DNA from: Sphingobacteriales bacterium
GTDB taxonomy: Bacteria > Bacteroidota > Bacteroidia > Chitinophagales > Chitinophagaceae
Direction: 5' to 3'
Assembly (NCBI GenBank): GCA_004295245.1
Contig: REAR01000060.1
Span: 1 to 64,000 of the forward strand
DNA: 64,000 bases
Under the pieces are notes generated by a model. The model searched no databases. It worked only from the letters and a program-made list of their open reading frames with translations, and had not been told where the DNA came from. This document shows positions 60,780-61,965 of this stretch, in pieces (the stretch's first letter is position 1; each line of letters begins with the position of its first letter). A program made the position numbers and the translations under genes.

Positions 60780-60853
60780 CCTGCAATATTAATAAGTAAT
60801 TATAAGAACAGCCTGTGTAATTATTGCAACAAGGGCAAAGCTGCTGTTTTAAT

Positions 60854-60881
60854 AAAAAAGCGGGTAGTAGAAACCACCCGC
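60854..60881 (-). terminator. terminator-like hairpin downstream of the IS1595-like gene
   Basis: aaaaaa-GCGGGT-agtagaaacc-ACCCGC: hairpin followed by T-tract on the minus strand. Confidence 0.65.
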
Positions 60882-60961
60882 GGTTGACATGAGAAAACTT
60901 GCTTTACTGCCTGCGAACACTTGTTGGTGGCGACAGTAAGAAACCACCAATATTATAAAGG

Positions 60962-61660
60962 TTAAGAAGCTTTTGAAAAGTGTAAGGGCCTCTTATTAAT
61001 TATTCCCATCAATACCTCGTTTATATTTTCGTTACGAAAATTGAAACGAAATTCAGATTCTTTTACATGCAGGGGTAAGGTGCTTTTGTTTAGTCCCCTG
61101 AATTTCAATAAACGATTTTTGGTATTGCTCCAAAAAGCAGTTACCTCATCAGCAGGTGCGGGGTTTTTTAAATTAACGGCTGTATCAATTCTAAAAAGGC
61201 GCCAATTATTAAAATCGGCAATAGCATGATAATGTGTGTAGGCATTTAAGTGAGACTGGTGCTCAGCTGTGGTATCGTGCAGCAATTTCATTCGTTGCAG
61301 TTCATGAATACTGTGTTTGTCAATATCGTTTAAGCGATCTGCGTAAACGTTGCCACCAGCTTTATAAAACCCGTAATACGGATGCAGCGCATCTACCGCT
61401 TCATCGCTTATACTTGTTTTAGCTTGTTTTAATACGGTGCTTTCATGCGCTTGTTGATGGCGATGGTAATGCGGATTTTTTTCTTCGCAAAAGCGGGCAA
61501 TTTGGGTGCGTATGAGCTTGAGGTAATTGTTAATAGTAACCCTGCTTACAAGGGTAATATTAGCAATTTGCGTGGCTGTTAGGTCTTCTGTAAACAGCTG
61601 AATAATTTCATGGCACTGTTTCTCACTTAGGTGAGATCTTTTAATAAGTCTGTTTTTCAT
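60962..61660 (-). CDS. IS1595/IS1016-like transposase-derived protein, DDE core apparently degenerate
   Basis: N-terminal HTH LTATQIANITLVSRVTINNYLKLIRTQIA and C-terminal FWSNTKNRLLKFRGLNKSTLPLHVKESEFRFNFRNE match IS1595-type organisation; central DDE landmarks not recognisable. Confidence 0.65.
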   Translation of the reverse strand: MKNRLIKRSHLSEKQCHEIIQLFTEDLTATQIANITLVSRVTINNYLKLIRTQIARFCEEKNPHYHRHQQAHESTVLKQAKTSISDEAVDALHPYYGFYKAGGNVYADRLNDIDKHSIHELQRMKLLHDTTAEHQSHLNAYTHYHAIADFNNWRLFRIDTAVNLKNPAPADEVTAFWSNTKNRLLKFRGLNKSTLPLHVKESEFRFNFRNENINEVLMGIINKRPLHFSKAS

Positions 61661-61965
61661 GGTGTGTTTAATAAGGTTTGCAGTTAAATAATCAGGCTGT
61701 TAAATTCTATCAGCAAACTGGCAGAGAAAATATAATATATATGTACGGGCATTAAAGCTGCTTAATGCCGTATACTAGATTATTTTATAAAATAAGCCAA
61801 TGATTGTTCCACGCAATGGTTGTTTAGGTTTGTATATAAAATCCTGTTTTCTGCAATAATGGACAGTCTGAGGTACTGAAATGTTACAAAAAAAGTAACA
61901 ACGTGCATTATTTAATATTAACGGTAATAAGCGGGTAAGCTGTATTGGGGCTAATTAATAAAAAA

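Follow-up and report, generated by a model that had tools for sequence, protein, structure and literature searches.

A domesticated IS1595-type transposase gene in Chitinophagaceae and its adjacent pseudoknot RNA, a candidate small RNA antisense to SusC translation starts

INTRODUCTION

The FopS small RNAs (sRNAs) of Bacteroides block the translation of susC homologues, to whose start region they are antisense; they are about 65 to 70 nt long, carry a 5' seed, are bound by RbpB, and occur as several paralogues per genome, one member being derived from a 3' untranslated region (UTR) (PMC11697453). The enterobacterial sRNA RydC combines a pseudoknot with an exposed seed at its 5' end and a terminator hairpin and is bound by Hfq (PMC4337610). 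Among proteins of transposon origin, the TldR group comprises domesticated, nuclease-dead, RNA-guided transcription factors derived from TnpB, which use an adjacent RNA (PMC13418256).

Here, we describe a locus on the minus strand of a 64,000-nucleotide stretch of a Chitinophagaceae genome (the window), where a gene of transposase origin is followed by a structured RNA. Our preferred reading, to which we assign a probability of about 0.6 for the module as a whole, is a retained regulator gene with a 3' sRNA that would repress SusC translation.

RESULTS

The protein is a catalytically dead IS1595 transposase

The open reading frame (ORF) at positions 60962 to 61660 is intact and encodes 232 amino acids. 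The NCBIfam model for IS1595 transposases (NF033547) aligned with the protein over its full length (model positions 1 to 215 of 215; E = 1.1e-8), with a score of 35 bits that falls below the curated cutoff of 75 bits, and it was matched by all 35 homologues tested (best E = 1.2e-30). Together with the motifs FW, K.RL.KF.GL, and LH.KE.EFR.N.R, kept in this protein and its clade, the alignment bears out the IS1595-like ends proposed in the initial annotation. Pfam returned only weak helix-turn-helix (HTH) matches (HTH_11/GerE type). The domain PF12762 (DDE_Tnp_IS1595) was not matched by the protein, appeared in only 2 of the 35 homologues, and was not found anywhere in the window's genome.

Alignment with intact transposases (Hymenobacter and Acinetobacter plasmid copies, plus other members of the phylum) located the losses. 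The DESYFG...RGKRGRG block (D1) is missing from the whole family clade, the D2 position reads H, N, or another residue in place of [TS]DGW, and the catalytic Glu of GIESFW is T in the window's protein and D, S, A, T, or E in its relatives. The absence of the first block and the altered second Asp, both suspected from the single sequence, thus hold across the clade, and no intact DDE triad is present. DESYFG, [TS]DGW, and GIE are all kept by outgroup relatives; in the tree, which has some long branches, the dead proteins grouped together next to the live ones, and this grouping was moderately supported (72/79). The parts that remain nearly invariant in the family are the HTH and the C-terminal LHVKE.EFRYN.R.

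The AF2 model (pLDDT of 85 overall) contains an N-terminal HTH (residues 10 to 61; positions 61478 to 61633), the best conserved part of the family, with helices at residues 13 to 24, 29 to 36, and 40 to 61 that mostly exceed a pLDDT of 90. Residues 95 to 223 (positions 60992 to 61378) form a remnant that we take to be RNase H-like from the order of its structural elements and that is missing the first strand, the one with the first Asp. A fold search of the PDB with this model gave nothing significant; the matches were only short and partial, to HTH domains of the LuxR/Tc3 type.

Partial loss of the catalytic motifs was also seen in other IS1595 relatives. One in an Olavius symbiont (L010 4995-5672) keeps D2 and Glu and has no D1 block. 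Another (L231; genome G355 and further species of genus g179 in family f38) is partly degenerate in several species, with D1 kept and D2 lost, and is possibly an independent domestication.

Copy number, locus, and selection

The dead-transposase gene is present once in the window's genome, as the initial annotation had supposed, and usually once, at most twice, in relatives. Several copies are common in live insertion sequences (IS), though not strictly defining. Since the same search found seven copies of an intact-motif relative from elsewhere in the phylum, which looks live, in genome G473, the single copy of the window's gene is meaningful. Terminal inverted repeats (TIRs) were no better than chance (the best inverted match between the 300-bp flanks was equaled by 63 of 100 shuffles), and no element ends that would place an 8-bp target site duplication were found.

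Homologues, mostly 35 to 56% identical to the window's protein, were found in 45 of the 299 genomes sampled from this bacterial family (16 of 104 genera), nearly always as single genes. Values of dN/dS within genera ranged from 0.02 to 0.15, that is, strong purifying selection. In most of 20 neighborhoods, the gene stands at the end of the series radC-prs-rplY(L25)-pth-FAA hydrolase-E1 dehydrogenase, where radC, prs, rplY, and pth are names that we assigned from the sequences. Several of these neighborhoods have a SusC-SusD pair directly after the gene; in genus g8, the gene lies elsewhere than at the common locus, yet again directly upstream of SusC-SusD. In genome G300, a SusC-SusD operon lies between two paralogues of the dead transposase (L044 3908-10997). 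The window's copy also differs in locus from its relatives, with a 2-oxoglutarate dehydrogenase E1 gene upstream and an RsmB/F-type methyltransferase gene downstream on the same strand: it has moved to a new place, and its RNA (see below) has moved along with it.

This change of locus, like the live, multicopy relatives elsewhere in the phylum, is what one would expect if the ORF were an IS1595 insertion that is in decay or can still move. The single copy, the chance-level TIRs, the disappearance of the catalytic residues throughout the clade, and the strong purifying selection make that explanation extremely improbable. Because the catalytic residues have been lost clade-wide from a single-copy gene with conserved synteny and low dN/dS, the data support a domesticated, catalytically dead IS1595 transposase. 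Of the initial proposal of a transposase-derived DNA-binding protein kept for a host function, domestication is supported, and DNA binding is suggested by the nearly invariant HTH. The protein is most likely a DNA-binding regulator.

Upstream of the gene, we detected a conserved noncoding block (positions 61725 to 61785, minus strand) in which ATAATCTAGT is followed by CCGY.. about 35 bp on and then by TATATTTT. Order and spacing are the same upstream of homologues in several genera, the block being common to genera at about 45% protein identity, and it is likely a promoter or operator. Palindromes occur in the 5' UTRs of two subclades (CGAA-N4-TTCG in one and TACG-N8-CGTA in the other); neither, as a potential operator, is present in the window.

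An action of the gene on the GTTGCGTCGCAC elements, about which the initial annotation had speculated, was rejected. These REP-like sequences, often arranged as inverted pairs 26 to 130 bp apart in gene gaps, occur at 24 sites in the window (1554 to 59583; up to two mismatches) versus 2.4 expected, and 781 exact copies are found in the genome. Among relatives, gene and repeat fail to co-occur: carriers of the gene (G001, G002, G004, G009, and G011) have 0 to 1 copies, and G005, G007, G013, and G014, all without a homologue, have 61 to 320 (147 to 320 in G007 and G005). The window's genome also has one Y1-type (RAYT-like) transposase gene, with one GTTGCGTCGCAC element nearby.

A pseudoknot RNA behind the stop codon

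A comparison of the 3' flanks of the homologues brought out a conserved element that follows the stop codon and in the window spans about 100 nt (60851 to 60950, minus strand). The terminator-like hairpin noted earlier does exist; it is the 3' end of this larger structured RNA, a candidate sRNA, which the first reading had missed. From 5' to 3', the element consists of two crossing helices (an H-type pseudoknot) and, after a short linker, TTTTCTCATGT and then a hairpin plus T-run. In the window, all on the minus strand, helix S1 pairs TTGGTGGT (60943 to 60950) with GCCACCAA (60924 to 60931), and helix S2 pairs TTACTGTC (60932 to 60939) with GGCAGTAA (60904 to 60911). The unpaired core CAAGTTTTCTCATGTCA (60885 to 60901) and the terminator GCGGGTGGTTTCTACTACCCGC with its T-run (60853 to 60881; hairpin at 60860 to 60881) follow.

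The pseudoknot is kept by compensatory changes. Stem sequences are wholly different between lineages and pairing is retained: over 16 divergent RNAs, 257 of 266 helix cells were paired, with at least three pair types at most positions. As the helices in this count were registered by hand on stems found by search, the shuffle tests matter. In alignment A3, pairing reached 96.3% and six pairs had double-sided changes; none of 500 shuffles was as high on any measure, and a slid partner paired at 49% or less. The pseudoknot score of the window's RNA was reached by 0 of 100 shuffles. Over 13 representatives, 0 of 100 dinucleotide shuffles reached the score in nine and 2 of 100 did so in one, and three gave none. 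TTTTCTCATGT is invariant in 20 aligned RNAs, and the unpaired, invariant core reads UUUUCUCAUGU. In genus g10, core and terminator are kept and the pseudoknot is absent.

No Rfam family matched the RNA above its gathering score, and a hit to L20_leader at 60846 to 60978 was at chance level (E = 1.8). A riboswitch for the downstream gene is unlikely, given that the downstream genes vary between genomes, and an AUG-UGA minimal ORF within the core is not conserved among the aligned RNAs. Upstream of S1, no common motif indicative of an RNA promoter of its own was found. The limited set of papers searched contained no description of this RNA, so that the family is apparently undescribed in those sources.

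Distribution of the RNA and its linkage to the gene

A covariance model, built from gene-adjacent RNAs so that high scores beside the gene are expected, recovered the window's RNA (G000:C268:60852-60951; E = 8.8e-13), which is one of its training sequences. At E values of ≤0.05, matches were found in 107 of the 299 genomes, the weak end of this list being uncertain. In 32 of the 45 carriers, a match is found on the same strand no more than 1 kb beyond the 3' end of the gene; in G179 and G128, it lies 6 kb and 13 kb downstream, respectively. Strong matches also occur in genomes without the gene (G061 [1.4e-15], G102, G310, G188, G270, and G016); the converse, the gene without an RNA match, was seen in genus g8. 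The gene-free RNAs, independent members located in intergenic places distant from the gene, reveal a wider paralogous family. By eye, the gene-free copies L107, L108, L109, L111, and L118 adjoin apparent pairs of a LytTR regulator and a sensor histidine kinase. The window's genome itself contains a second AAGTTTTCTCATGT with a GC-rich terminator hairpin and no obvious pseudoknot (G000:C206:20387-20448; L072, L075).

Such close linkage, and the joint departure of the window's gene and RNA from the ancestral locus, could mean that the dead transposase is the protein partner of the RNA in one ribonucleoprotein, loosely like TldR. Each partner occurs without the other, however, no RNA-binding signature was found in the protein, and the exposed core is invariant, unlike a variable guide. 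We know of no IS1595 protein that binds RNA, and we consider such a particle very doubtful. That the two form one unit in which the protein binds or controls the RNA, setting which SusC transporters are translated, also seems improbable to us, even if protein and RNA may be functionally tied in some way.

Complementarity to SusC translation starts

The exposed core is antisense to the start-codon stretch (ACAUGAGAAAA) of SusC mRNAs. Its complement, ACATGAGAAAA, includes ATG AGA AAA, a start codon followed by Arg-Lys. In the window's genome, this complement has nine occurrences, among them this RNA, the second core-plus-terminator, and the starts of three long ORFs. One of these ORFs (G000:C77) encodes a SusC-type receptor whose start region is perfectly complementary to the core over 17 nt, genome-specific flanks included. 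In eight other genomes, CACATGAGAAAA occurred 63 times, compared with 4 occurrences of the reversed control. The genomes read gave 40 distinct start-codon sites in all, of which a profile classed 23 as SusC type; among the SusC-type sites checked with Pfam, 10 of 10 had CarboxypepD_reg and 9 of 10 the TonB plug. Two SusC starts match the RNA of their genus perfectly over 20 nt, and the RNA-target duplex had an energy of −29.5 kcal/mol versus a mean of −13.6 for shuffled targets. At the level of sequence, the core of the RNA is antisense to the region where susC translation begins.

Exported proteins commonly begin with M-R-K, and many SusC proteins do so anyway. Part of the enrichment of ATGAGAAAA at the starts of SusC genes is therefore to be expected, and this enrichment is by itself no proof; the long pairing extensions and the unvarying sequence of the core weigh more heavily. 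Pairing beyond the core was modest on average, and the difference between SusC and other sites, which was modest too, was set aside. The exact core complement was absent from the six SusC starts read near homologues, and no SusC target was found among the sites read in genus g126.

The frequency of M-R-K starts also lends itself to another explanation, by which the RNA has no function in trans: it would be an elaborate 3' UTR and terminator that stabilizes the regulator mRNA, and its SusC match would simply mirror a common start of exported proteins. In most carriers the RNA follows the stop codon directly, and it ends in a terminator; both fit such a role. Against it, the unpaired core is the part whose sequence does not vary, whereas the hairpin and the two stems of the pseudoknot do; paralogues occur in intergenic places far from the gene, and some SusC starts show complementarities of 17 to 20 nt. 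We find this explanation unlikely; most likely, the RNA is an sRNA by which the translation of SusC is blocked.

DISCUSSION

The module that we propose would work as follows. A protein descended from an IS1595 transposase and no longer able to cut DNA would be kept as a regulator through its HTH, with its own conserved upstream region as the likely site of action. The transcript of the gene would end in, or run beside, the presumably transcribed RNA, in which a stabilizing pseudoknot precedes the exposed core UUUUCUCAUGU and an intrinsic terminator. Acting as an sRNA, it would block the translation of some SusC/RagA outer-membrane transporter mRNAs, a subset of the whole, by pairing where their translation begins (ACAUGAGAAAA). 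If this is true, SusC would be controlled by an sRNA also in Bacteroidota of the Chitinophagaceae type, the architecture, in which a pseudoknot is combined with a core antisense to the start codon, being unlike that of FopS in gut Bacteroides, and repression of glycan importers at the start codon would be a recurrent strategy in the phylum. The domesticated DDE transposase described here has also remained under strong selection, at a stable locus and beside a structured RNA; to our knowledge, bacterial DDE transposases domesticated as regulators seem to have been little described.

With the IS1595 family (NF033547; PF12762; the type without an N-terminal zinc finger), the protein shares full-length alignment, the N-terminal HTH, and the C-terminal FW..K.RL.KF.GL...LH.KE.EFRFN.R. 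It differs in having no D1 block, D2, conserved Glu, or TIRs and in being a single copy at a conserved locus. As in TldR, a transposon protein has, we propose, been exapted for regulation with an RNA adjacent, but TldR is TnpB derived and RNA guided, and no guide was seen at this locus. The RNA resembles RydC in its pseudoknot, exposed core, and terminator hairpin, whereas RydC has its seed at the 5' end, is bound by Hfq, and has other targets; we do not claim homology between the two. The closest parallel is FopS, likewise antisense to susC starts and with paralogues. The FopS layout within the FopS/GibS family (about 65 to 70 nt, 5' seed) is not that of the RNA described here, which is about 100 nt long with a pseudoknot upstream of the core, occurs in another bacterial family, and is linked to a transposase-derived gene. 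The best reading is that this RNA is like FopS but unrelated to it.
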